Shown here piece by piece: positions 345-46,357 of a DNA stretch of 64,000 bases. The stretch's first letter is position 1; every line of letters starts with the position of its first letter. Origin of the DNA: Clostridia bacterium (GTDB lineage: Bacteria; Bacillota; Peptococcia; DRI-13; SM3-B62); the NCBI GenBank assembly GCA_018432615.1, contig JAHDSQ010000003.1, positions 1-64,000 on the forward strand. The letters are read 5' to 3'. The notes under the pieces are model-generated. The model made no database searches and was not told the DNA's origin. It saw only the letters and a program-made list of their open reading frames with translations. Both the position numbers and the translations under genes were made by a program.

Positions 345-1730
345 TTGAGATTAAACTCGGCTAAAGAGGAAATGATTGATGCCATCTTTGAAACCCTTTC
401 CTGTCTTGTGGTTGTTGATGCAGAAGGAAGGATCATACACTTGAATAACAAATACGCAGATATTTTGGGGGTTAGTTTGGAAAAAGCTATAGGTGAATCG
501 GTAGACGATATTATACCTAATACAAGGATGAGTCTTATACTAACAACGGGCAAAGAAGAAATAGGTTCGGTTTTTAGAATGAAAAATGGTGAAACTGTCG
601 TTTGCAATCGTTTTCCCATTAAAAAGAACGGTAAGATTATCGGAGCATTTGCTCATACCACTTTTACAAATAATGATGAAGTAAAGGTTTTTATTAAACA
701 AATCAATGATTTAAACAATGAGCTTAATCAATACCGTTGTATTCTAGGTAAACTGCAGGAAGCCAAATATTCACTTAAAAACATCATCGGAAATACACCA
801 AGCATTAATAGGGTTACTGCCATGATCAAGAAGGTGGCTCAAACAAAATCCACAGTTTTAATTATCGGAGCGACGGGGACCGGAAAAGAGTTGGTTGCTC
901 ATGCCATTCATCAGGAAGGGAAACGCCGATACAAACCTTTTATACGTTTAAATTGCGCTGCTATACCAAAGGAATTATTGGAATCTGAATTATTTGGTTA
1001 TGAGGAAGGTGCATTTACAGGAGCTAAAAAAGGTGGAAAACCGGGAAAGTTTGAATTAGCGGAAGGTGGTTCCCTATTATTAGATGAAATCAATCAATTG
1101 CCGCTTAATATGCAAGCCAAGCTATTGCGTGTGATTCAAGAAAAAGAGATAGAAAGAGTAGGGGGAACAAAAACCAAAGACATCGATGTTCGTTTAATCT
1201 GTATAAGTAATATTGATCTTGCTGAATTGGTAAGGAAGGGTGAATTCAGAGAGGACTTGTATTATAGGATAAATGTTGTACAAATAAACCTTCCGACTTT
1301 ACGTGAGAGGTTAGGCGATATCGAAGAACTCACTAATTATTTTATTGCAAAGATTAATAGAAATCTTGGGATAAGCATTACCGGAATATCAAAAGATGCC
1401 TTGAACTTATTTAAATCTTATGATTGGCCCGGAAACATCAGAGAATTAGAATTTGCTTTGGAAAGAGCAGCAAATTGTGTTTTATCGGGTCCTTTAGAAG
1501 TCGAACATTTTGATTTCCTTTACCAAAGATTGAATAGGCCTAATAAACAAGTTGATGAGGGGGACAAAGAGGTGCAAACCCTCAATTATATAAGAAGTGA
1601 GGCTGAGAAAGAAGCAATAATCAATGCCATGATCAAGACTAATGGTAACAAGCGTTTAGCAGCACAATATTTAAAAATTGACCGTAGCATTTTGTATGAC
1701 AAGCTAAAAAAATATAATATTACTTTATAG
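345..1730 (+). CDS. Sigma-54-dependent transcriptional activator (PAS, AAA+, Fis-type HTH)
   Basis: Enhancer-binding protein of 461 residues that would remodel sigma-54 RNA polymerase. An N-terminal PAS-like sensor (about 8-110) is followed by a short linker with coiled-coil character (about 115-145). The AAA+ domain carries Walker A GATGTGKE (175-182), the sigma-54 contact loop GAFTGA (222-227), a Walker B LLLDE and the WPGNIREL box. A Fis-type helix-turn-helix occupies about 430-457. The TTG start is chosen because GGGAGGTG lies just upstream and no ATG fits. The gene ends at a hairpin terminator (1831). It precedes three units with sigma-54 promoters, so it is very likely their activator. 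The ligand of the PAS domain cannot be read from sequence. Confidence 0.93.
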   Translation: MRLNSAKEEMIDAIFETLSCLVVVDAEGRIIHLNNKYADILGVSLEKAIGESVDDIIPNTRMSLILTTGKEEIGSVFRMKNGETVVCNRFPIKKNGKIIGAFAHTTFTNNDEVKVFIKQINDLNNELNQYRCILGKLQEAKYSLKNIIGNTPSINRVTAMIKKVAQTKSTVLIIGATGTGKELVAHAIHQEGKRRYKPFIRLNCAAIPKELLESELFGYEEGAFTGAKKGGKPGKFELAEGGSLLLDEINQLPLNMQAKLLRVIQEKEIERVGGTKTKDIDVRLICISNIDLAELVRKGEFREDLYYRINVVQINLPTLRERLGDIEELTNYFIAKINRNLGISITGISKDALNLFKSYDWPGNIRELEFALERAANCVLSGPLEVEHFDFLYQRLNRPNKQVDEGDKEVQTLNYIRSEAEKEAIINAMIKTNGNKRLAAQYLKIDRSILYDKLKKYNITL

Positions 1731-1804
1731 CTATAAGACAAGTTCAATAATGATTTCATCGTAAGTATTGTTATGTAGTATTTTCCTGAAACATAGAGCG
1801 TAGT

Positions 1805-1822
1805 TGTAGGCATATACCTACA
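1805..1822. promoter_or_regulatory. Candidate enhancer (UAS) of the sigma-54 activator
   Basis: Dyad TGTAG-N8-CTACA inside a longer palindrome (TTGTAGG/CCTACAA, 1804-1823). Its centre is about 60 bases upstream of the -24 element at 1874. The same layout, TGTMG-N8-CKACA, recurs at 9399 and 46410 beside other sigma-54 promoters. Binding by the activator is inferred. Confidence 0.6.
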
Positions 1823-1830
1823 AAACAGCA

Positions 1831-1870
1831 AGCTCGGCTTGGCTAATTTAAGCTATGCCGGGCTTTTTTG
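1831..1870 (+). terminator. Rho-independent terminator of the activator gene
   Basis: AGCTCGGC (1831-1838) pairs with GCCGGGCT (1857-1864) with one G-T wobble. An inner TGGCT/AGCTA stem extends the pairing and six T residues follow. It lies between the candidate UAS and the sigma-54 promoter. Confidence 0.75.
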
Positions 1871-1873
1871 TTT

Positions 1874-1889
1874 TGGCATGATAATTGCT
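1874..1889 (+). promoter_or_regulatory. Sigma-54 (-24/-12) promoter
   Basis: TGGCATG-N4-TTGCT matches the consensus TGGCACG-N4-TTGCW at all fixed positions except C to T at the sixth. It is 43 bases upstream of the ketopantoate-reductase-like start and drives the 1933-4622 operon. Confidence 0.85.
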
Positions 1890-1932
1890 TATATATTACA
1901 TAAGAATATTTATGCAAAAAAGGAGGTAAAAA

Positions 1933-2958
1933 ATGAAAACAGCTGTTTTAGGAGCAGGTTCACTGGGTACGATCATAGGTGGAATGATTACAAAAAATGG
2001 TGGAGATGTAGTACTCGTAGACGGTTATAAAGAGCATGTGGAAGCGTTAAAACAAAACGGAGCAACGATAAAGGGAGCAATAGAAGACAATATCCCTGTC
2101 AAAGCGTTCTTGCTTGATGAAATCGAAGGTATGTTTGATTTGGTACTATATGTAGCAAAGGCAACATATAACGATTCATATCTACCGGCAATCCTTCCTC
2201 ATTTACACGAAAACAGCGTTGTATGTACTCTTCAGAATGGACTCCCGGAAGAGGTTGTGGTGGAATATGTAGGAAGGGAAAGGGTGGTCGGGGCTACTGT
2301 TGGTTGGGGAGCCAGTCTGCAGGGGCCTGGAGTATCGTTATTAACTTCTCATCCGTCCAGGCAAATATATGACTTGGGAGAGTTGAACGGAGAAATAACG
2401 CCAAGGCTTCAGGAAGTTAAGAAGGTACTTGATTTAGCGGGATCGTGTAAGATAATTGAAAACTTAAGGGGTGTGCGTTGGTCAAAACTGTTGATGAATG
2501 CTGCCTTTAGCGGAATGTCTGCGGCATTGGGGTATAATTATGGCGAAATACTTAATGACAGCAAGGCTCTATTTTGTTCTGCTTTTATAGCGGATGAGCT
2601 CATAAAGGTTGCTCATGCTCAAGGCATTCGCATGGTAACCATGCAGGGTGAGGACTTTGAAGGGTTTGAATTAAAAAATGGCAAGGCAGATTTGCCTAGT
2701 AAGATGTCGCTTTACGAAAGGGTATTCGGTCCTCATGAAAAAGTGATCGCCAGCATGCTTTTTGATTTAAGGTTGGGCAAAAAAACAGAAATTGATGCTA
2801 TTAATGGCTCAGTGGTATCAAGAGGGAAAAAAGTCGGTATAGCAACTCCCTTCAATGAAAAAGTGGTTTTTTTAATTAAAAAAGCAGAAGCGGAGAAAAG
2901 TGTGCCTGACAAATCAAATCTAAGCATGTTTGAAGATATTATTGAAAAAACAAAGTAA
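1933..2958 (+). CDS. Ketopantoate reductase (PanE/ApbA) family oxidoreductase
   Basis: Protein of 341 residues with an N-terminal Rossmann fold, GAGSLG at about 7-12, and a C-terminal all-helical dehydrogenase domain, as in 2-dehydropantoate 2-reductases. ATG is preceded by AAAGGAGG. It is the first gene of a sigma-54-driven unit with 3-hydroxybutyryl-CoA dehydrogenase (30-base gap) and crotonase. In that context it is more likely a catabolic NAD(P)-dependent hydroxy-acid/keto-acid reductase or dehydrogenase than a pantothenate-synthesis enzyme, as the family includes many members of other specificity. The fold assignment is firm, the substrate is not known. Confidence 0.85.
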   Translation: MKTAVLGAGSLGTIIGGMITKNGGDVVLVDGYKEHVEALKQNGATIKGAIEDNIPVKAFLLDEIEGMFDLVLYVAKATYNDSYLPAILPHLHENSVVCTLQNGLPEEVVVEYVGRERVVGATVGWGASLQGPGVSLLTSHPSRQIYDLGELNGEITPRLQEVKKVLDLAGSCKIIENLRGVRWSKLLMNAAFSGMSAALGYNYGEILNDSKALFCSAFIADELIKVAHAQGIRMVTMQGEDFEGFELKNGKADLPSKMSLYERVFGPHEKVIASMLFDLRLGKKTEIDAINGSVVSRGKKVGIATPFNEKVVFLIKKAEAEKSVPDKSNLSMFEDIIEKTK

Positions 2959-2988
2959 AATTGGCAAAAGTACAAGGGAGGAAGGAAA

Positions 2989-3831
2989 ATGAAAAAAGTA
3001 ATGGTTGTTGGAGCAGGTACAATGGGGGGCGGTATAACCCAAGTTTTGGTGCAAGCCGGCTATGATGTGGTACTGCGCGATGTGAAGGAGGAATTTGTTA
3101 ATAAGGGTATTGACGCAATCAAAAAGAACTTAGAAAGAATGGTGAGTAAAGGGAAACTCGATCAGGAAAAGGCCAAAGAGGCTTTAGGAAGAATTAGCGG
3201 TACGGTCGACATTGCTGCTGGTAAGGATGTTGACTTGGTAATAGAGGCTATTACGGAAAATATGGAAATCAAGAAAAAACTATTCATGGAATTGGACAGT
3301 ATTGTGCAAGAAGAGGCAATTTTAGCCAGTAACACATCTAGTCTAAGCATAACCGAAATGGGAGCGGTGACAAAAAGGCCGGATAAGGTCATTGGAATGC
3401 ACTTCTTCAACCCAGTGCCTGTTATGAAATTGGTAGAAATCACAAAAGGCGCGGCCACATCTGAAGAAACTTCAGAAAAGTTAGTACAGCTAGCCAAAGA
3501 TTTATCCAAGAACCCTGTAAGAGTTACGGAAGCGCCAGGATTTGTTGTTAACCGTATCCTTATACCGATGATCAATGAAGCTGTTTATTTGTTAGCGGAA
3601 GGTGTTGCCAGTACCGAAGATATTGATGATGCTATGAAGTTCGGCTCTAATCATCCTATCGGTCCCTTGGCTCTGGCGGATTTAATTGGTATTGATGTTT
3701 GCCTTGCGGTAATGGAAGTGCTTTATCAGGAATTCAGTGATAGTAAATATAGACCGTGTCCTCTAATGCGCAAAATGGTGAGAGCAGGACATTTGGGACG
3801 TAAAAGCGGGAAAGGGTTTTACACGTATTAG
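2989..3831 (+). CDS. 3-hydroxybutyryl-CoA dehydrogenase
   Basis: NAD-dependent interconversion of acetoacetyl-CoA and (S)-3-hydroxybutyryl-CoA. The 280 residues match the short single-function family. The Rossmann motif GAGTMG is at 8-13, the catalytic His is in HFFNP (H138), Glu follows at 150, and the C-terminal helical domain ends with the [11 protein letters not shown] signature. ATG follows GGGAGGAAGG. It sits between the PanE-like gene and crotonase in one operon and would link the acetoacetyl-CoA pool made by the 9618-15974 operon to crotonyl-CoA. The direction (butyrate formation or 3-hydroxyacyl oxidation) cannot be told here. Confidence 0.93.
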
Positions 3832-4763: not shown

Positions 4764-5267
4764 TTAGTTACTATTTCCGGAAGCCTTCTGTATTAATTTG
4801 CCACCTTCGGAAATCGCTATTCCTAGAATCATACCACCTACTAGTGTACCAAAAACAGCGATCGGATGTTGACCTCCATCGGCGAATGTACTGGCCAATC
4901 CACCAAAAATCATGGGGACAGTTCCAAACCAAGTGCTGCCTAAGACGATCATGTGTAGTCCTACGCAGAGGAAGGTACAGACAGCCACTACAACTAATAA
5001 GGCTACTGGAGCAGCGAAGCCTGCCACTACCATTTTGTTGATAAGGAAAAGATAAAATAATCCCCATAGAACACCGGAAAGGCCACTGAAAAAGAAATTA
5101 GGGAAGAGATTAAGAGGAGCACCTACTCCGAAAAATATGGGCAATGCGATGAAGGCCATAAACATAATATTGAGATTGGCAACGGGTAAATAGCTGTATA
5201 TAAAGGCAAACAATCCACTTGCGATACCTATCCATACGGTCCATTTCCACAAATAACTTTTATCCAT
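4764..5267 (-). CDS. DUF1097-like integral membrane protein
   Basis: A 167-residue protein made almost wholly of hydrophobic helices, about five segments. The C-terminal glycine-rich stretch around ASTFADGG-...-GMILGIAISEGG resembles DUF1097 proteins such as E. coli YcdZ, recalled from memory and not searched. It is the last gene of the leftward operon, 20 bases after the lactonase-like gene. A GGGAGA site precedes the ATG. Its position after a symporter and hydrolases suggests a role in uptake or export of the same substrate, but this is inference and the function is unknown. Confidence 0.65.
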   Translation of the reverse strand: MDKSYLWKWTVWIGIASGLFAFIYSYLPVANLNIMFMAFIALPIFFGVGAPLNLFPNFFFSGLSGVLWGLFYLFLINKMVVAGFAAPVALLVVVAVCTFLCVGLHMIVLGSTWFGTVPMIFGGLASTFADGGQHPIAVFGTLVGGMILGIAISEGGKLIQKASGNSN

Positions 5268-5287: not shown

Positions 5288-6115
5288 CTAATATTTTGGC
5301 CATTTTGAACTGGGGCATACGCCGCGTTCAAAGGTTTTAAGATCATGGAGTGTAATGATATAATCGGCCTCTTTTTTGACCCTCAGAGCACTTTCATAGG
5401 CATCTTCGTTATTGACATGCAATCCGGGGACCAAAACATCCGGCCATATTGCTTTGAGGTCATCAGGAGGATTAAAATTGTCCTCGTCACAACAAAAGCC
5501 ACAAATAATGACCCGGCCTTCCTCTGCGTCAACTACAACAGACTGACCACCCGGAGTATGGCCCGGAGTGTAAAGGAGGTGAATACCGGGGAAAACGTTG
5601 AAGACATCACCGTCAACAAAAGTAGGTTCTAAACCTTCAAGGTATTCAGGGTTGTAAAGGAAGCGATAACAAGCAGGTTTGTTATGAACGGCATTCCATT
5701 CATCCTGTTGGACAATGATTTTAGCGTGCTTGAACATACCTGCCAAGGGACAGTGGTCATGATGCAGTTGAGTGAGGATGAGCACATCAATATCGGCTGG
5801 GGTCAACCCGGTAGCATCTTTTAAAGCTTCTGGCATTGGTTTTATGCCTTCACAAGGATAACCGTGGGCAACAAAGTCTTCCACTGTTGGGCCCGTGTCT
5901 ACCAAGATGTTGTGTCCTTCCACACCTTTAATAAAAAAGCATCCTCCAGCTATGGTCATTGTCTGGTCGTAATTAAGGATGTAGGTAAAAATACCTTTGG
6001 TAATTCCTTCTGATTTCATAACCAGAATTGGTACTACCGAATAAGGGTGTGGTTGCCAGTCGGGAAGAACAGGCCTCTGTTTTGCTTTGACATCAGGCAT
6101 TCCATAAACACTCAT
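5288..6115 (-). CDS. Metallo-beta-lactamase-fold hydrolase, N-acyl-homoserine-lactonase-like
   Basis: A 275-residue MBL-fold protein resembling the AiiA/AttM lactonase family. Visible elements are LVDTG (71-75), the metal motif, LYTPGHTPGG with the next metal His, an Asp in GFCCDED, and a late His in ITLHD. The metal motif, normally HxHxDH, here reads QLHHDH (116-121), so the first histidine is Gln (codon CAA). This may mean a changed or mononuclear metal site. It lies between the symporter and the DUF1097 gene in a sigma-54 operon, so it may open a lactone or hydrolyse an ester of the transported compound rather than act in quorum quenching. GGAGG precedes the ATG. Confidence 0.82.
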   Translation of the reverse strand: MSVYGMPDVKAKQRPVLPDWQPHPYSVVPILVMKSEGITKGIFTYILNYDQTMTIAGGCFFIKGVEGHNILVDTGPTVEDFVAHGYPCEGIKPMPEALKDATGLTPADIDVLILTQLHHDHCPLAGMFKHAKIIVQQDEWNAVHNKPACYRFLYNPEYLEGLEPTFVDGDVFNVFPGIHLLYTPGHTPGGQSVVVDAEEGRVIICGFCCDEDNFNPPDDLKAIWPDVLVPGLHVNNEDAYESALRVKKEADYIITLHDLKTFERGVCPSSKWPKY

Positions 6116-6233: not shown

Positions 6234-8207
6234 TTAAAGTGCATCGGCATATTTGTTGATCATGCTGTAACCCTTATCCGTTACTTGCAATACGCGCTTC
6301 CAAAGGCCTTTCTCAAGGATGTAACCTTTTTTAACCATATGTGAGATGATACTGGCGACTTCAAGTGAGGCAAGGTTTTCCTCTTTGGCGAATTCGGGAA
6401 GCTTTTCGGGGTCCTTGGCGGCCATTTGTAGAACCTTTACGTACAAAGGTTTCAAGGAATCAGCAGCCATAGTGGCTTCTTTTTCGGGGAGTTTTGGCAA
6501 TAGAGACAATCCTTTAGGAGTGATTTCAAAGCTGTAGAAGTTTGCTCCGCTGAGGGCATGTCTCTTAATATATCCGCCTCTATCTAATCTTTCTACGGAC
6601 TCGTTACTGTACCTGGAATCCACTTTTAAAGCATCGGTCAATTCTGACATAGAATCGTGTCCATAACGAAGCATTTCAAGTACTTTCAAATCAATTGGCT
6701 GTGTTTCAATATTTTCCCTATTGTTTGCACCTGGCTCTTTATCCCAAGAGGGAGCACCAAAATATTTAGGTGCCGTTGACAGGGAGATAATTACAGAAAG
6801 CACCAAAGTTACGATGAAACCTGCAACGCCAACGTGCATATATTTGCTGATAACAAAAGAACCGGATAACTCTAAGAACGTTAAAACAGCCATTGTAATC
6901 ATCCCGAAGATTGCACCCCAAAGGGCTCCGGGGGCATTGAACCTTCTCCAGGTCATTCCTAAGAGAACGAGGATCGACGGAGGTCCAAGCCAGGAATTAG
7001 CGAAGGCAAAGAGGTAAACGGGACCGCCGGGGTAGAAGCAGAGAAGCCAAGTAACGGCGCCTATAAGGAGAAGAATTACTTTTGAAGGGATTAATAGTTC
7101 TTTGGCGGAAGCGTTGGGACGGAAAACACGTTGGTAAATATCCCTGACCGCCGTGGAGGTTGCGCCGATATGGGCTGTAGCTGCCGTAGAAATGGAAGCT
7201 GCCAATGCGCCTATCAAGAGAAAAGAGGCTACGGCCGGAGGTAGGATCTTAAGCACGACCCCATAAGCTCCTGCGGCTGAAACTTTGCCGATGGGTGCGA
7301 ACATATCCGGATAGGCAGATGCCGCATAAATACCTAACAGAGTGAGGGGTAGAAAGACGATCGGGACTAAAGCGAGCCCTGTCCAGAAGTATGATTGCTT
7401 TGCAACCCTTTCACTGCGGCAAGAGGCAACTCTCAACCAGTAGTAGTTATTGCCCCATACCAAAAAGCATGCAAACAGCAACATCATCGAAAGAACACTG
7501 GGATATTTTAAAGATAGAATCGGCATTTGAGCTCCCGTAATACCAGCAGTCCAGAAGTTTTCTCCCGGCCAGGATGAATGCAGGAAGCTGGAACCGCCAA
7601 ATTTGGTAACCAGGCTGAAGATGAGTAAAGGAATAGCCACAAAGCCGATGAGCATTTGTATAAAGTCTGTAAGTGTAACAGCCCAGAGACCACTGAAAAA
7701 TGAGAACATCAGGATAACAAAGAAACATCCGCTAATAGAAACCCATAAGGGCCAACCTACGTAACCGGTAATAATAGCAGCCATAGATACGATGTTATTG
7801 GCCATAATCCCGGTAAGACCCAAAACAGTCGTTACGGTAACAATCAGGCGAACTTTTGATGAAAATCTCATTTCCAACCATTCAGGCAAGGTCTGCGCTC
7901 CGCATTTGCGGATAAAGTCAGAGAAAAACAGACCATAAAAGGCCAAGCCACCGATGGAATAAATTAACCCCCAGGCTAACGAACCCCAAAAACCGAAGCT
8001 TACAGCCAGGCTTGGTGAAAGGGCTAAGACAGTACCGGCAAAACCGATAGCCATTACACCAAAGACGTTAAGCATCAAGCTTACTTCACGACCGGCTAGG
8101 ATAAAGTCGGACGTGTCGGATATCCATTTCTTACTGTAATAGCCAGCAAAGATAAGAACTCCTGCGAAGATAATGAAGTATATCAGGAATATTTGATTAG
8201 CTCCCAT
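6234..8207 (-). CDS. Sodium:solute symporter with C-terminal tandem winged-helix domains
   Basis: A 657-residue protein. Residues 1 to about 490 form the multi-helix core of the sodium/solute symporter (SSS, SLC5-like) family. The final 152 residues (about 506-657, bases 6234-6692) are soluble. They look like two consecutive winged-helix units, each with a helical DNA-recognition-like part and a hairpin ending in ITPKGLSLL or VTDKGYSMI, as in MarR/PadR-type wings. An in-frame ATG 14 codons upstream exists, but the ATG at 8207 is preferred because AAAGGTGG lies 8 bases upstream. The frame is continuous, so the fusion is real. The transport substrate is probably an organic acid handled by the neighbouring enzymes. 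The role of the extension is unknown. Confidence 0.88.
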   Translation of the reverse strand: MGANQIFLIYFIIFAGVLIFAGYYSKKWISDTSDFILAGREVSLMLNVFGVMAIGFAGTVLALSPSLAVSFGFWGSLAWGLIYSIGGLAFYGLFFSDFIRKCGAQTLPEWLEMRFSSKVRLIVTVTTVLGLTGIMANNIVSMAAIITGYVGWPLWVSISGCFFVILMFSFFSGLWAVTLTDFIQMLIGFVAIPLLIFSLVTKFGGSSFLHSSWPGENFWTAGITGAQMPILSLKYPSVLSMMLLFACFLVWGNNYYWLRVASCRSERVAKQSYFWTGLALVPIVFLPLTLLGIYAASAYPDMFAPIGKVSAAGAYGVVLKILPPAVASFLLIGALAASISTAATAHIGATSTAVRDIYQRVFRPNASAKELLIPSKVILLLIGAVTWLLCFYPGGPVYLFAFANSWLGPPSILVLLGMTWRRFNAPGALWGAIFGMITMAVLTFLELSGSFVISKYMHVGVAGFIVTLVLSVIISLSTAPKYFGAPSWDKEPGANNRENIETQPIDLKVLEMLRYGHDSMSELTDALKVDSRYSNESVERLDRGGYIKRHALSGANFYSFEITPKGLSLLPKLPEKEATMAADSLKPLYVKVLQMAAKDPEKLPEFAKEENLASLEVASIISHMVKKGYILEKGLWKRVLQVTDKGYSMINKYADAL

Positions 8208-8286
8208 TAAAAAACCACCTTTCATTATTAGTATTAGAGCAATAGACAAGACTTAATAAATGTTGTATCACCTCCTGATTTCTTTA

Positions 8287-9051
8287 TTAAGGAAGTATAG
8301 CCACGGCTCTTACCCAACCGCCACTGGCAGCTTTGATCTTGACCGGGAAACAGATAACCTTGAACCCAAAGGAGGGTAATTTATCAAGGTTGGCCATTTT
8401 TTCCATATGGCAATACTCCTGTTCTATACCCGCAAAATGGCCTTCCCAAACAACGCTGGAATCTCCTGTTGCCTCAAAGTCTTTCGCTTGGAAGGGTAAA
8501 GGACGATCCCAACTCCAGGCATCGGTACCTACGACTCTGACACCTTGTTTGGTCAGCCATAAAGTGGCTTCTTTACTCATGCCGCAACCTCTGACAAGAT
8601 ACTCTTGCTTCCCGTAATAGGGGGCAGCACCGGAACGAACTAAAACAATATCCGAGGGCTTGAGTTTATAATTTATTTTATTAAAAGCATCTTCCATGTC
8701 TTTTGCTGTCACATTATAACCGTCGGGTTTGTCGCTAAAATCCAAGACTACTCCGTCGGAATAACACCACTCAAGAGGAACTTCGTCGATGCCTTTAGCT
8801 GGTTTTCCCATAGAAGTAGAGTGGTAATGAATAGGGGCATCCAGGTGTGTGCCGCTATGAGTTGTGACAGAAAGGAACTCTATCTGCCATCCCTCGCCTT
8901 CAGGTAAATCCTTGGGGGTTAATCCCGGGTAAAACTTCTTCATTGTTTCTGCGCCCTCATCATGTTTGGCATACCTTATTTCAGGTGTCATAAAATCAGG
9001 GTCGCCGGGCAGTTTGTGTTCAATAGCTACACTTAAGTCAACGATTCTCAT
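8287..9051 (-). CDS. Cyclase family protein (kynurenine-formamidase-like metal hydrolase)
   Basis: A 254-residue protein of the cyclase/arylformamidase family (PF04199). The diagnostic metal motif HxGTHxDxPxH is complete: H65, G67, T68, H69, D71, P73, H75. Family members hydrolyse amides, lactones or cyclic compounds, kynurenine formamidase being the best known. No kynurenine pathway gene is near. As first gene of a sigma-54 unit with a symporter and a lactonase-like protein, it probably processes the imported compound. ATG is preceded by GGAGGTATTAGC. The leader of about 260 bases is long and structured. Confidence 0.85.
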   Translation of the reverse strand: MRIVDLSVAIEHKLPGDPDFMTPEIRYAKHDEGAETMKKFYPGLTPKDLPEGEGWQIEFLSVTTHSGTHLDAPIHYHSTSMGKPAKGIDEVPLEWCYSDGVVLDFSDKPDGYNVTAKDMEDAFNKINYKLKPSDIVLVRSGAAPYYGKQEYLVRGCGMSKEATLWLTKQGVRVVGTDAWSWDRPLPFQAKDFEATGDSSVVWEGHFAGIEQEYCHMEKMANLDKLPSFGFKVICFPVKIKAASGGWVRAVAILP

Positions 9052-9321: not shown

Positions 9322-9337
9322 TGCAAGTATTATGCCA
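9322..9337 (-). promoter_or_regulatory. Sigma-54 promoter of the leftward cyclase-symporter operon
   Basis: Read on the minus strand, TGGCATA-N4-TTGCA matches the -24/-12 consensus with two deviations in the less conserved bases. The candidate UAS at 9399-9416 is about 72 bases upstream. Confidence 0.8.
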
Positions 9338-9535: not shown

Positions 9536-9551
9536 TGGCATGGTTTTTGCT
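9536..9551 (+). promoter_or_regulatory. Sigma-54 promoter of the CoA-transferase operon
   Basis: TGGCATG-N4-TTGCT, the same sequence class as at 1874, lies 67 bases before the CoA-transferase start. An ATG at 9540 lies inside this promoter and so cannot be the translation start. Confidence 0.85.
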
Positions 9552-12152: not shown

Positions 12153-12179
12153 AAAAAAAAAAAAGAAAGGGAGATGAAA

Positions 12180-13109
12180 ATGGCAAAAAAAATCTGGATA
12201 ACGGCAGCTGTCACTGGTGCAGTGCACACCCCGTCTTTATCACCTTATTTACCGATAACCCCGGAAGAAATAATTGAAGATGCGGTAAAAGCTTATGAGG
12301 CGGGGGCGGCAGTAGTTCATGTGCATGCAAGAGACCCTAAAACCGGCAAACCTATTTCCGATGTAAAAGTAATGGAGAAGATTGTGTCAGGCATTAAAAA
12401 AAGGTGTAATGTGATTATTTGCGTGACCACCGGCGGTGCGATAGGGATGAGTCTGGCAGACAGATTAGCACCGATTCCTGCCTTAAAACCGGAGTTGGCT
12501 TCCTTGAATGCAGGTTCGATCAATTTCGTTTTATCGCCAATGGCCAGTACCGTACAGAAAAACGGAGCCAAACATGATTGGGAGATTCCTTATCTTGAAG
12601 GTACTTACGATATGATTTTTCCGAATACCTTTTATACCTTTGAGAATTATTGCACCACAATGAATGAATATCAAACCAGGCCGGAACTGGAGGTTTATGA
12701 TGTTGCCATGATTAATAACATCGCGTACTTCTTGAACAAGGGAGTATTGAAGAAACCTCCTTATATTCAATTTGTTTTAGGTATCCTGGGCGGATTGCCG
12801 GCTACTGTTGAACACCTGAGCTACATGGTGAAATATGCTAAAGAACAAATAGGTGATTTTTTCTGGTCGTGTGCCGCTGCAGGGCGATATCAGTTCCCTC
12901 TCACTGCCACTGCCTTGGCTATGGGAGGCAATGTGCGTGTGGGTTTGGAGGATAATCTCTATTTAGGCCCTGGGGTCTTAGCTAAATCGAGCGGAGAACA
13001 GGTTACAAGAATTAAGGAGATTGCGGAAAGAATGGGCTTTGAATCTGCTTCGCCAGATGAGGTAAGAGATGAGATGGGATTAAAGGGCAAAGATAATACC
13101 GGATTTTAA
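12180..13109 (+). CDS. Beta-keto acid cleavage enzyme (BKACE, DUF849)
   Basis: A 309-residue TIM-barrel protein of the 3-keto-5-aminohexanoate cleavage (Kce) family. The family takes a beta-keto acid and acetyl-CoA to acetoacetate and a new acyl-CoA. The metal-binding HVHARD (H47, H49) follows the family N-terminus ITAAVTG and PITPEEI. Specificities in the family vary (3-keto-5-aminohexanoate, dehydrocarnitine, beta-ketoadipate-like acids). Its neighbours lack the other lysine-fermentation genes but include a carnitine-dehydrogenase-like enzyme, so another 3-keto acid is more likely. ATG 12180 is preferred over 12174, as the latter abuts GGGAG. Confidence 0.9.
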   Translation: MAKKIWITAAVTGAVHTPSLSPYLPITPEEIIEDAVKAYEAGAAVVHVHARDPKTGKPISDVKVMEKIVSGIKKRCNVIICVTTGGAIGMSLADRLAPIPALKPELASLNAGSINFVLSPMASTVQKNGAKHDWEIPYLEGTYDMIFPNTFYTFENYCTTMNEYQTRPELEVYDVAMINNIAYFLNKGVLKKPPYIQFVLGILGGLPATVEHLSYMVKYAKEQIGDFFWSCAAAGRYQFPLTATALAMGGNVRVGLEDNLYLGPGVLAKSSGEQVTRIKEIAERMGFESASPDEVRDEMGLKGKDNTGF

Positions 13110-24335: not shown

Positions 24336-26253
24336 GTGCGCCCGGCATGGGCGCAGTCTAACGGGTGAAAGTCCCGAGTGCGGGTTGATAGTGCCAAGCA
24401 CATAGCCAAGGGCAAGGGTGTCCATCGTGAGATGGAATCTGAAGGAAGCCGGAGGCAAACTTCTGGTCTGACGAACAGAAATCACATAAGGCATATGTAG
24501 GCTGGGTAAGGTTGCAAGACAAACTGAAGCCCTAAACTATCCGGAAGCCTACGGTGTAAATGTGGCAGATAGATGGAAGGAAAGACTGCGTTCTTACCCG
24601 GGGAGGTCTCATGGACGTGCGGAAACACAGTGTATGAAGCACGGTTGAAACAAGATTTATCATGAGAAGTCAGCAGAGACCATAGTACCCGAGGAAGTCG
24701 ACGTCATCGGGGAAGGGTTGAACCTTAGGAGGTGAAAGTTAATGAATGTTACCAAAACAGAAGCGAAGTGCAGCCAACTTCCAACAGACGAAGATCAAAA
24801 GGAAAGCTCACTCCAAAAGAATAGTGCGGAACACAAAGGATATGGAGGAGTGCACAGTTCTGTGAGGATCACTGAAAACAACATCACCGACGCAGACCAG
24901 TCGAAGGAGAGATTGCTTGAGGGAGTAGTAGACAGAGACAACATGAATCACGCGTTCAAAAGGGTCAAGTCGAATAAAGGCTCTCACGGAGTTGATGGGA
25001 TGGGAGTGGATGAGCTTCTACAATATCTCAAAGAAAACGGAAGCCAACTCAGGCAGTCAATCTTGGACGGAAAATACCGTCCTAATCCCGTCAGAAGGGT
25101 AGAAATACCGAAGGAAGACGGAAAGAAAAGAAATCTTGGAATCCCTACAGTAGTAGACCGAGTGGTGCAGCAAGCGATAGCCCAACAGTTCACACCGATC
25201 TTCGAGAAGCAGTTCTCCGACAATAGCTACGGGTTTAGACCCGGACGAAGCGCTCATGATGCCATCAGAAAATGTCAAACGAACATAGATGAAGGATACA
25301 AATATGTGGTAGATATGGATTTGGAAAAGTACTTCGATACGGTGAATCAAAGCAAACTGGTAGAAGTACTATCAAGAACCATCAAAGATGGGAGAGTCAT
25401 ATCGCTGGTTCATAAATACCTTAGAGCAGGAGTAGTGATCAGAAAACGCTTTGAAGAAACAGAAGTCGGCGTACCTCAGGGAGGCCCATTAAGTCCAATT
25501 CTTAGTAACATCATGTTGAATGAACTGGACAAGGAACTTGAAAGAAGGGGTCACAGATTTGTCCGGTACGCGGACGATATGATGATCTTCTGCAAGAGTA
25601 GAAGAAGCGCTGAACGTACACTAAGCAACATCTTACCCTTCATCGAGAAGAAACTATTTCTTAAAGTGAATCGGGAGAAAACAGTGGTCGACTACGTAGG
25701 AAAGGTGAAATTTCTTGGATTCTCGTTTTACCAAATGAAAGGCAAAACGAGAATCAGAATACATCCAAAATCGGTGAGGAAGATGCGCGGCAAGGTTAAA
25801 GAATTCACCTCCAGAAGCAACGGAATGGGAAACGAACTCAGAATCACAAAACTTAGACGCTACATCATGGGGTGGATAAATTACTTCAAGTTAGCAGACA
25901 TGAAGACGTTGCTATTGCAAACTGATGAATGGATGAGAAGACGAATCCGCATGATTTACTGGAAGCAGTGGAAACGAGTGAGGACAAAGCTGAAAATGCT
26001 TAAATCGCTGGGAATCCATGAGCAGAAAGCATGGGAATACGCAAATACAAGAAAGAGCTACTGGAGAACATCCAATAGCCCAATCCTATCCAAATCACTA
26101 ACTAACGACGTAATAAAAGGATTTGGATTCCTATTCTTTTCAGAATATTATCGACAAGTTACTGTGTAAACTGAGGAACCGCCGTGTACCGAACGGTAGG
26201 CACGGTGGTGTGGGAGGTCGGCCACTCAAATAATGGGTGGCCTCCTACCCGAT
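24336..26253 (+). mobile_element. Group IIC intron with maturase gene
   Basis: The 5' boundary GTGCGCCC is the group II 5' splice consensus. The 5' domain I region (24336-24741) is non-coding ribozyme sequence. Domain V, with CCGCCGTG...CACGGTGG arms, lies at about 26178-26209. Domain VI, with GGGAGG...CCTCCTAC arms, follows up to about 26250. Location directly after a terminator hairpin is the known preference of class C introns, and the maturase resembles class C enzymes. The 3' end (CCGAT) is set to within 1-2 bases and touches the rpsT stop. The element appears intact. Confidence 0.9.
24742..26169 (+). CDS. ltrA: Group II intron reverse transcriptase/maturase
   Basis: A 475-residue intron-encoded protein that helps splicing and reverse transcription during retrohoming. 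The RT domain includes SYGFRPGRSAHDA, VPQGGPLSP and the catalytic YADD box. The maturase X domain ends in the ANTRKSYWRTS segment shared with class C proteins such as GsI-IIC. No HNH endonuclease domain is visible at the C-terminus, as usual for class C. GGAGGTGA precedes the ATG. Reading frame and motifs are complete, so the element could be active. Confidence 0.95.
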   Translation: MNVTKTEAKCSQLPTDEDQKESSLQKNSAEHKGYGGVHSSVRITENNITDADQSKERLLEGVVDRDNMNHAFKRVKSNKGSHGVDGMGVDELLQYLKENGSQLRQSILDGKYRPNPVRRVEIPKEDGKKRNLGIPTVVDRVVQQAIAQQFTPIFEKQFSDNSYGFRPGRSAHDAIRKCQTNIDEGYKYVVDMDLEKYFDTVNQSKLVEVLSRTIKDGRVISLVHKYLRAGVVIRKRFEETEVGVPQGGPLSPILSNIMLNELDKELERRGHRFVRYADDMMIFCKSRRSAERTLSNILPFIEKKLFLKVNREKTVVDYVGKVKFLGFSFYQMKGKTRIRIHPKSVRKMRGKVKEFTSRSNGMGNELRITKLRRYIMGWINYFKLADMKTLLLQTDEWMRRRIRMIYWKQWKRVRTKLKMLKSLGIHEQKAWEYANTRKSYWRTSNSPILSKSLTNDVIKGFGFLFFSEYYRQVTV

Positions 26254-33311: not shown

Positions 33312-34340
33312 ATGAAAATGGATGAGAGAAAACAACGTGTTCTTTTGGCTACCATCCTAGACTACATTGCTACCGCAGATCCCGTCGGGTCGAGGACAAT
33401 AGCGCGCAAGTACAATTTGGGAGTAAGCCCTGCGACTGTGCGTAATGAAATGTCCGATTTGGAAGAAATGGGCTATCTTGAACAGCCTCATACATCTGCA
33501 GGCAGGATTCCTTCACAATTAGGTTACCGTTACTATGTTGACTTTTTGATGAAAAAAGAACCTATTGAAGGTGAAATCAGGGATATTATTTATCAGACCT
33601 TGTTAAATCGTATCAGAGAAACCGATGAGCTCATTAGCTTGACGAGTAAGCTTTTATCGCAGTTAACGAACTATACAGCCTTTATTCTGGCACCTTTCTG
33701 TGGAGAAAATACCCTCAGGCACATTAAATTGCTTCCTATCGAAGAAGGCAAAGCCGTCGTTATCATCGTACTGGACAGCGGGCATGTGGAGCACCGAATA
33801 GTGGAAGTTCCGGGGTATTTGAATGAAGGCGATTATGCGGCTATCTCTGCTATTCTCAACGGGCATCTTCAAGGCTTAACCCTGGAACAGTGGCATCCGG
33901 GGATTATCCAGGCGGTATACCGTGACCTTGATAGGCAGCGAGAGACGTTGAAGCAGATTATTGAGGTGATTGAACAGTCTCTTGATTATGAGCATGAGCA
34001 AAAGGTCTTTCTCAAGGGCACTTTGAATATTCTTGATCAGCCGGAATTTAAGCAGATAGAGAGGGTAAAAGCGCTTTTTGAACTCTTTGAGGAAGAAGAA
34101 ACGATTAAGAATCTGCTACATTCCGACCAAGAAAACGGTATTGTCATCAAGATAGGTACGGAAAATCGTCATGAGTCCATGAAGGGTTGTAGTCTCGTCA
34201 CAGCTACTTACCACCGACAAGGAAAGGTGATTGGCAATATCGGTCTGCTTGGCCCCACTAGGATGGAGTATTCCAGGGCGGTAAGTATTGTAGAGCTAGT
34301 TACTTACGCCTTGACGGATATGTTGGAGAAAATGAGATAA
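33312..34340 (+). CDS. hrcA: Heat-inducible transcription repressor HrcA
   Basis: Repressor of 342 residues that binds CIRCE. An N-terminal winged helix ([34 protein letters not shown]) is followed by the GAF-like and inserted dimerisation domains. In most Firmicutes GroEL keeps HrcA active. Here a group III chaperonin is the next gene, which raises the question of which chaperonin does so. GGTGGAG precedes the ATG. Confidence 0.96.
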
Positions 34341-34368: not shown

Positions 34369-35940
34369 ATGATGAGTGTTAAGGACAGAGGTGCGCAGAA
34401 TTCCGAGGTTGATGAAAAGATAGCAGCCCTATTAACTAATTCCAATGCCATCAAAGCCCTGGCCCGGGCCGTAGAGGGAACGATAGGGCCTAAGGGTCTG
34501 GATACCATGCTGGTAGACCAGATTGGAGATGTGGTTATTACCAATGATGGCGTAACGATTTTAGATATGATGGATATTAGTCACCCGGCTGCCAGACTGC
34601 TGATTAAAACGGCAAAAGCTCAGCAGGAAGAGATAGGGGATGGAACCACGACGGCTACCATTATGGCCGGGACTTTGGTGGAGGAGGGCGTCGTTCAGGT
34701 AATGAAGGGAGTGCCGGTCATCAAGGTAATTGAAGGAATGAGACTTGCTTTGAAAACGGCACTGGATGTTTTGGATAAGAAAACAATCCAGATTAAAGAC
34801 ACTACTGATGATGTCCTGGAGAATGTGGCGCAAATAGCCGGCAGAGGTCATAAGGATATTGCCCGCTTGGTGTACGAAGCACTTGGAATTATCGGCAGAG
34901 AAAAACTGCTGGAGCCTTCTTTCAAACTGGCTGATACCATCCGCGCTTATGAGGGCGCGGAGAATCAAGTGATTTCCGGAGTGGTTTTGGATAAACCGCC
35001 TATGAATATGGAGATGCCTAAAAAATTGAAGGGTGTCAAGCTGTTAGTGATAGATGATGCCCTGGAACCTGAAGAAATTGATGATGAAGCGTTGGCAACA
35101 GAGGTAGGTGTAAATAGATACATACAATTCCAGGAAGAGTTTAAAGAAAACATCAGAAAAATTGTTGGTCTGGGTGTGAATATGATTCTGGTCGACAGGG
35201 GTGTGCACGATGCGGCGGAAGAGATTCTGACGGATGCTCATGTTATGGTGGTGCAGCGTGTTTCCAATAAGGAGTTGTACCGGGCTGCCGAACACTGCGG
35301 TGCAAAGATGCTAAAAAGGACAGGCTTAAAGAAAAAAGAAGAAGAATTGCTTGCCGGTTGCGGTAACGCCGAGGAAGCTTTTTACGATGAGAAGTTAAAG
35401 CATGTCCGTCTCTTGGGAGGCGGGGCAAAAACACAGGCTACTATTCTTGTTGGCGCCTCTACACAGGAAGTTGTGGGTGAACGGGAAAGGATAGCTAAGG
35501 ACGCTGCCTCCGCCGTGCAGGCCGCGGTAAAAGGCGGCATTATGGCGGGCGGCGGAACTGTTGAACTTGCCGTTTCCCGGGAGGTGGAAAAAGCCCGCAG
35601 AGAAATCAAGGGCATGGCTGTTTATGGTATGGATTGTGTGATTGCCGCCCTGAAAAGGCCTTTTTCCCAAATTGTGATGAATGCCGGTTTTAACCCGTTG
35701 GAAAAAATTGGTGACGTTACCGCGGCTCAGGTCGAGTGTGGGAAAGACTCCCTCGGTATCGATTGTGATACCGGAGAAATTTCCGATATGGCCCAAAAGG
35801 GTGTTTATGACCCGGCACCGGTAAAAAGATACGCTTTGTCGGCAGCAGGAGAAATTGCGGAGGCCATTTTAAGGATTGATACCATTATTAAAAAAAAGGA
35901 AGAAGGCGGTTCGGGTTTACCCAGAGCCGAGAAAATATGA
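34369..35940 (+). CDS. Archaeal-like (group III) chaperonin, TCP-1/thermosome family
   Basis: A 523-residue ATP-driven folding chamber subunit. It resembles thermosome/CCT and not Gro[21 protein letters not shown] (59 on), GDGTTT (90-95, ATP site), and a protrusion region in place of a GroES-binding surface. Bacterial group III chaperonins of this type are known from Carboxydothermus and related Clostridia, where they also sit in the dnaK operon. They have a built-in lid and need no GroES, and no groES lies beside it. GGAGGATAA precedes the ATG. It is under CIRCE control with hrcA. Confidence 0.94.
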
Positions 35941-46341: not shown

Positions 46342-46357
46342 TGCAATTATTGTGCCA
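46342..46357 (-). promoter_or_regulatory. Sigma-54 promoter of the DUF169 gene
   Basis: On the minus strand TGGCACA-N4-TTGCA, with GG and GC at the exact -24/-12 spacing. It lies 100 bases upstream of the start codon. Confidence 0.8.

Follow-up and report, generated by a model that had tools for sequence, protein, structure and literature searches.

The window analysed here, a stretch of 64,000 nucleotides from a contig of a Clostridia bacterium (JAHDSQ010000003.1), contains a gene for a sodium:solute symporter (SSS) whose transport core is followed by a cytoplasmic tail of 152 residues. The gene starts with the ATG at 8205–8207 and ends with the stop at 6234–6236 on the minus strand, and no internal stop is present; a TTG at 8249 is a possible alternative start, and the start of the homologues is the ATG. 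The initial annotation had placed the symporter and the tail in one frame, which is borne out by 657 uninterrupted codons on the minus strand. The genes for the cyclase-family hydrolase, the symporter, the metallo-beta-lactamase-fold enzyme and the DUF1097 membrane protein are located on one strand in that order (Table 1). Elsewhere in the window, inspection by eye revealed a 523-aa ORF (34369–35940, plus strand) that, in this bacterium, resembles a chaperonin of the archaeal type (group II/III, thermosome-like), flanked by hrcA-like (33312–34340) and dnaK (36596) genes, and an ORF of the group II intron-type reverse transcriptase/maturase kind (24742–26169, plus strand) in a housekeeping region, right after a holA-like gene.

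Table 1. Features of the symporter gene, its operon and related genes in the window
Feature	Position	Strand	Basis
PAS-AAA-Fis sigma-54 activator	345..1730	+	profile; homology
DUF1097 membrane protein, downstream of symporter	4764..5267	-	profile
Metallo-beta-lactamase-fold (lactonase-like) enzyme, downstream of symporter	5288..6115	-	profile, neighbourhood
SSS symporter with tandem winged-helix tail, single ORF, 657 aa	6234..8207	-	ORF and homologues
SSS (LeuT-fold) transport core, residues 1-477	6777..8207	-	Pfam SSF; AF2 and Foldseek; positive-inside
S340-T341, invariant in the family	7185..7190	-	alignment columns
Linker, ordered but not helical, residues 478-503, with KYYG...W..P...NR conserved	6699..6776	-	alignment; pLDDT 85-96, full-length model
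WH1, winged helix 1, residues 504-567, MarR-like	6507..6698	-	profiles, AF2, Foldseek
WH1 'recognition' helix, residues 530-543	6579..6620	-	net charge over 50 homologues
WH2, winged helix 2, residues 587-653, HTH_45-like, basic	6249..6449	-	profiles, AF2
WH2 helix 3, residues 614-627, mean charge +2.0	6327..6368	-	charge count
WH2 wing, residues 630-642	6282..6320	-	conserved motif
PF04199 cyclase-family hydrolase, directly upstream of symporter, conserved neighbour of the family	8287..9051	-	profile, neighbourhood
Sigma-54 promoter, perfect match to the consensus (TGGCATAATACTTGCA), ahead of the cyclase-symporter operon	9322..9337	-	motif search
Beta-keto acid cleavage enzyme (BKACE); homologous genes recur as neighbours in the family	12174..13109	+	homology

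The protein belongs to the SSS family (TC 2.A.21, PF00474) by both profile and structure. The SSF profile is covered in full by residues 35–435 (Pfam, E = 6.7e-32), and the full-length AlphaFold2 model, made with 47 natural homologues, contains what we count as 13 transmembrane helices and matches the LeuT-fold proteins SGLT2, SiaT, NIS and CHT1 in Foldseek (E about 1e-14). The family mean of lysine and arginine residues per protein is 12.3 in the presumed cytoplasmic loops versus 2.9 outside, and this positive-inside bias places the C-terminus in the cytoplasm. A336, S340 and T341 of the core are invariant columns across the family, and the last two would be expected to be Na2-site residues from what is known of PutP and vSGLT. 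The symporter is probably coupled to Na+.

For the isolated tail, AlphaFold2 with 50 natural tails predicted two complete winged helices (mean pLDDT 93.2, pTM 0.87), so that the proposal of two winged-helix-like units made in the initial annotation is borne out. The ITPKG and VTDKG segments, previously described as wing ends, turned out to be the places where beta-3 passes into the next helix in WH1 and WH2, respectively. In a Foldseek search of the PDB, the tail matches MarR proteins, ScoC and ScpB with probabilities of 0.8–1.0 and none of them with E < 1e-3, as expected for small winged-helix units newly arranged relative to each other. In sequence comparison, WH1 matches MarR (PDB 9qdr, E = 2.4e-4) and, in family members, MarR_2 (up to 1.7e-7), and is on these grounds homologous to MarR, while WH2 is not MarR-like and matches HTH_45 (up to 7.4e-12 in family members); HTH_27 (1.5e-8) and HTH_24 (4e-8) are found in the tails of other members. 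The tail of the window copy alone gives sub-threshold HTH matches only, namely HTH_45 with 25.3 bits (cut-off 25.5) and HTH_27, and since it falls just below the Pfam cut-offs it would be missed by routine annotation. The WH2 wing carries the motif E-x-G-hydrophobic-aromatic-K/R-R, in which E632 and G634 are invariant and R638 nearly so. In addition, no profile match to the STAC four-helix bundle was found in the window symporter or the family tails, and no Pfam or NCBIfam match to PAS, DHp or CA kinase domains in the symporter, and a STAC or kinase tail was rejected on this basis. Membership in the FeoC family was also rejected, because PF09012 is not among the 25 of 29 families listed for the 50 tails (E ≤ 0.01).

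A scan of GTDB contigs via exact peptide words with the window symporter (P0001) as query, which distant or tail-less relatives may escape, identified 51 related loci, which belong to Bacillota and Spirochaetota, and the full-length fusion recurs in about 50 genomes of these phyla at 44–66% identity; a homologue is also present in Brevibacillus panacihumi. The search for SSS proteins with the same C-terminus, suggested when the tail was first noticed, was thus rewarded, and these homologues, together with purifying selection, rule out an artefact of assembly or frame fusion. Both winged helices are present in every homologue on a long enough contig, and a partial tail occurs only in L049 and L050, both truncated at contig ends. 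In L148, a spirochaete member found later (1441–3396, minus strand), the WH2 wing is eroded and the conserved Arg is gone. A divergent member, L135 (6759–8786, minus strand), with a core identity of 33%, keeps both winged helices, and its context consists of xanthine-dehydrogenase, UbiD and ABC-transporter genes without the cyclase. In six of the 398 Bacillota genomes surveyed the tail is present, each time attached to an SSS core with at least 33–35% identity to that of the window; the tail-less SSS proteins listed from them are all at most 30% identical to the window core. No tail-less relative above 30% identity was found there, the next SSS proteins being about 22–30% identical and all without the tail. 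Among 296 Spirochaetota-centred genomes, the tail was found in two, one of them the centre genome, beside one weak standalone match. At E < 1e-5 the tail is restricted to these SSS proteins in the 398 and 296 genomes, and otherwise only weak matches to short standalone proteins appeared; both of the two that were scanned are MarR proteins, the nearest standalone matches found to the tail. No plasmid-borne copy was found.

A tree of the cores of 74 SSS proteins is split by a single branch (SH-aLRT 100) into those with and those without the tail, which amounts to one change in total, and no loss of the tail is seen within the tail-bearing clade. For closely related pairs, the pairwise omega of WH1 and of WH2 falls mostly within 0.01–0.2 (0.5 in one noisy WH2 pair), and the distances of the core are correlated with those of the tail (r = 0.77–0.83). 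Taken together, the tree, the low omega and the correlation indicate that the tail was gained once, kept and selected. Residues D525, D530, L541, R549, S614, E632 and G634 are invariant in it. Its mean identity is 0.45/0.37 versus 0.53 for the core, i.e., the tail evolves faster.

The neighbours of the family encode cyclase, BKACE, thiolase, CoA-transferase or FAH enzymes, and 34 loci contain the PF04199 cyclase cluster, mostly adjoining the symporter directly. The cyclase is absent beside the symporter in the spirochaete/Halanaerobiaceae clade with LuxR-type regulators and in G249, where xanthine-dehydrogenase-type, UbiD and ABC-transporter genes were recognised by eye around the symporter. 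These neighbours resemble the cyclohydrolase and the triacetate acetoacetate-lyase of the phloroglucinol pathway (PMC10470551). The phloroglucinol degradation cluster of Clostridium scatologenes has in common with the loci described here a cyclase-family C-C hydrolase, a BKACE-type cleavage enzyme and a thiolase, and the guilds of the organisms are the same, as this symporter is found in two degraders of flavonoids, Flavonifractor plautii and E. ramulus. However, the transporter reported for that cluster is a major-family one, and none of the genes next to the symporter in the family loci was identified as a phloroglucinol reductase. Thus, phloroglucinol is not asserted as the substrate despite the suggestive neighbours, and the transported compound is likely related to phloroglucinol without being identical to it, probably of the cyclic diketone/beta-keto-acid type.

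The transcription of the operon can be explained by the sigma-54 site and the activator without the tail. The activator encoded in the window is 40–44% identical to those adjoining the symporter in other genomes, and four perfect sigma-54 sites (TGGCAYRN4TTGCW) are present in the window at 1874–1889 (plus), 9322–9337 (minus), 9536–9551 (plus) and 46342–46357 (minus), versus 0.06 expected by base composition; three of the four lie within the beta-keto-acid/CoA catabolic region. Among 52 loci, a regulator gene beside the symporter encodes a sigma-54 activator (23), TrmB (10) or a MalT-like LuxR protein (8), and the loci without an assigned regulator are mostly cut by contig ends. Of the 23 loci of the sigma-54 type, 17 have a perfect sigma-54 site ahead of the symporter operon, versus 0 of the 18 of the TrmB or LuxR type (Fisher p = 7e-7). 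No convincing operator was found upstream of the operon in the window, where the inverted repeats are short and AT-rich only. As the regulator changes by clade and the tail is constant, the regulator has been swapped at least twice while the tail stayed, which argues against the tail both as the operon's own transcription factor and as a fixed partner of any single regulator.

Only the core and the tail are constant in every genomic context, while the regulator and the enzymes vary. In the full-length model, the linker between them is ordered, and the pTM is 0.85. By our own estimate, a free tail (27% of residues) on a perfect core would give a pTM of about 0.76, so the higher value indicates that the model holds the tail in a set position against the core and suggests, from the pTM, that it docks there. 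Considering that the core is the only constant partner, together with the pTM, we favour, with a probability of roughly one half, the reading that the protein is a Na+-coupled SSS transporter with a once-acquired, docked tandem winged-helix module which senses or controls the state of the transporter and is not primarily the transcription factor of the operon. The core would import a substrate or intermediate of anaerobic cyclic-ketone/beta-keto-acid catabolism together with Na+, and the tandem module would dock on its cytoplasmic face. There it might sense or control the conformation of the transporter, either for autoregulation of uptake or for reporting transport to a cytosolic partner, and would thus make the protein a 'transceptor-like' SSS in which the tail acts in the way of STAC in CbrA or of FeoC on FeoB.

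Alternatively, the tail could hold or release a co-encoded regulator depending on the state of transport, in the manner of MalK with MalT. It is consistent with this that 41 of the 52 loci have one of the three dedicated regulators adjoining the symporter, and that in spirochaetes and Halanaerobiaceae (L007, L009, L035, L037, L039, L043, L044, L045) the gene for the MalT-like LuxR protein comes next after the symporter. The symporter stop overlaps the start of the MalT-like gene by about 4 nt in L039, L043, L044, L045 and L148, which suggests translational coupling and would also suit a dedicated partnership of symporter and regulator. However, one conserved tail would then need to bind three unrelated families of regulators, and the core tail motifs are common to homologues across the regulator types, so we regard sequestration as possible but unlikely.

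Rather unlikely, in our view, is a membrane-tethered one-component regulator in which the symporter core would be the sensor and DNA would be contacted by WH2, possibly together with WH1. In its favour are the predicted winged-helix fold, which appears genuine, the homology of WH1 to MarR and the cytoplasmic placement of the winged helices on a membrane protein. Moreover, helix 3 of WH2 has a net charge above zero in 96% of the homologues and the wing is positive in 98%; with the nearly invariant Arg638, these basic elements are typical of nucleic-acid contact, and WH2 could, as far as its sequence tells, bind DNA. On the other hand, the recognition helix of WH1 has a net charge of -4 to 0 in all 50 homologues (mean -1.56), compared with a mean of +1.5 for 14 wHTH control proteins, most of which come from the same genome (Mann-Whitney p = 6.5e-8, which is only indicative since the sequences are related and not independent). 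Helix 2 of WH1 is also negative in all homologues, and wing 1 of WH1 averages +2.0. Thus WH1 has the fold and the homology of a MarR-type wHTH and lacks the positive recognition helix. The lack of such a helix in all homologues had been named in the initial annotation as evidence against its proposal, and this was found for WH1 and not for WH2. The operon, in addition, is already under sigma-54, TrmB or LuxR control, the WH2 wing is eroded in one divergent spirochaete member, and the tail looks fixed to the core in the model. Of the earlier suggestion of a membrane-tethered one-component regulator, the fold and the fusion therefore stand, while a role as regulator of its own operon is disfavoured by the acidic to neutral WH1, the sigma-54 promoter with its activator and the swapped regulators; the protein-binding alternative offered with it fits better than the DNA-binding one. 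Somewhat more doubtful still is the bolder idea that one polypeptide combines a functional secondary transporter with a transcription factor, such that the transport state of the core frees or aligns the basic WH2 for binding of DNA or RNA at the membrane. If true, uptake would feed gene expression directly, without a kinase or second messenger.

It is also conceivable, though improbable, that the tail is a scaffold which docks the first catabolic enzyme, i.e., the cyclase, or other cytosolic partners and channels the imported substrate to them. The usual position of the cyclase genes next to the symporter would agree with this, but the tail persists without them in the spirochaete/Halanaerobiaceae clade and in G249, so that its conservation is, as partly seen there, independent of the presence of the cyclase. 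A functionless relic, left when a once independent MarR-like protein was fused by chance to the symporter, for which the faster evolution of the tail might speak, is highly improbable and largely refuted by the purifying selection on the tail, its invariant residues and the single clade without losses.

The docked regulatory module favoured here has its closest analogy in the SLC5/STAC histidine kinases (CbrA, CrbS/MxtR, RpuS), which likewise consist of a 13-TM SSS core with a C-terminal cytoplasmic signalling extension. In CbrA, cryo-EM revealed a pocket at the base of the SLC5 core that is occupied by STAC (PMC13022988), and in the window symporter the tail would be docked under the core in a similar way. 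The difference is that a STAC four-helix bundle with PAS, DHp and CA domains is present in the kinases and two winged helices here. SSS/SLC5 transporters have been described as recruited for sensing only with kinase or PP2C/GAF modules, and no SSS-HisKA proteins were found in Gram-positives (PMC7918813), whereas the winged-helix-tailed SSS proteins occur in Bacillota and Spirochaetota. FeoC, a small transporter-linked winged-helix domain, was once predicted to be a repressor, and its DNA binding has never been demonstrated (PMC7762939); a complex of FeoC with NFeoB is described in a work cited there (reference 121 in PMC7762939). However, FeoC is a single winged helix, usually a separate protein, and FeoB is an unrelated, GTPase-linked transporter. 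By analogy, our best reading is that the tail may work like STAC in CbrA or FeoC on FeoB and is a member of neither. WH1 aligns with the wHTH of the MarR regulators, but differs from them in its neutral to acidic helix, the membrane fusion, the appended second winged helix and the absence of the long MarR dimerisation helices. The membrane-tethered one-component regulators ToxR, CadC and TcpP have an N-terminal DNA-binding domain, one TM helix and a periplasmic sensor; the window protein resembles them in having a cytoplasmic winged helix on an integral membrane protein, but its winged helices are C-terminal, in tandem and on a 13-TM transporter. No prior description of an SSS-winged-helix fusion was found in a full-text search of open-licence papers, in agreement with the initial annotation, to which such a fusion was unfamiliar.

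The tail of this symporter is a caution that a winged helix should not default to DNA binding. The conserved, single-origin clade of SSS proteins with a tandem winged helix would represent a second, compact architecture for communication from a LeuT-fold transporter to the cytoplasm, and the family comes with well-defined operons that are amenable to direct functional tests.
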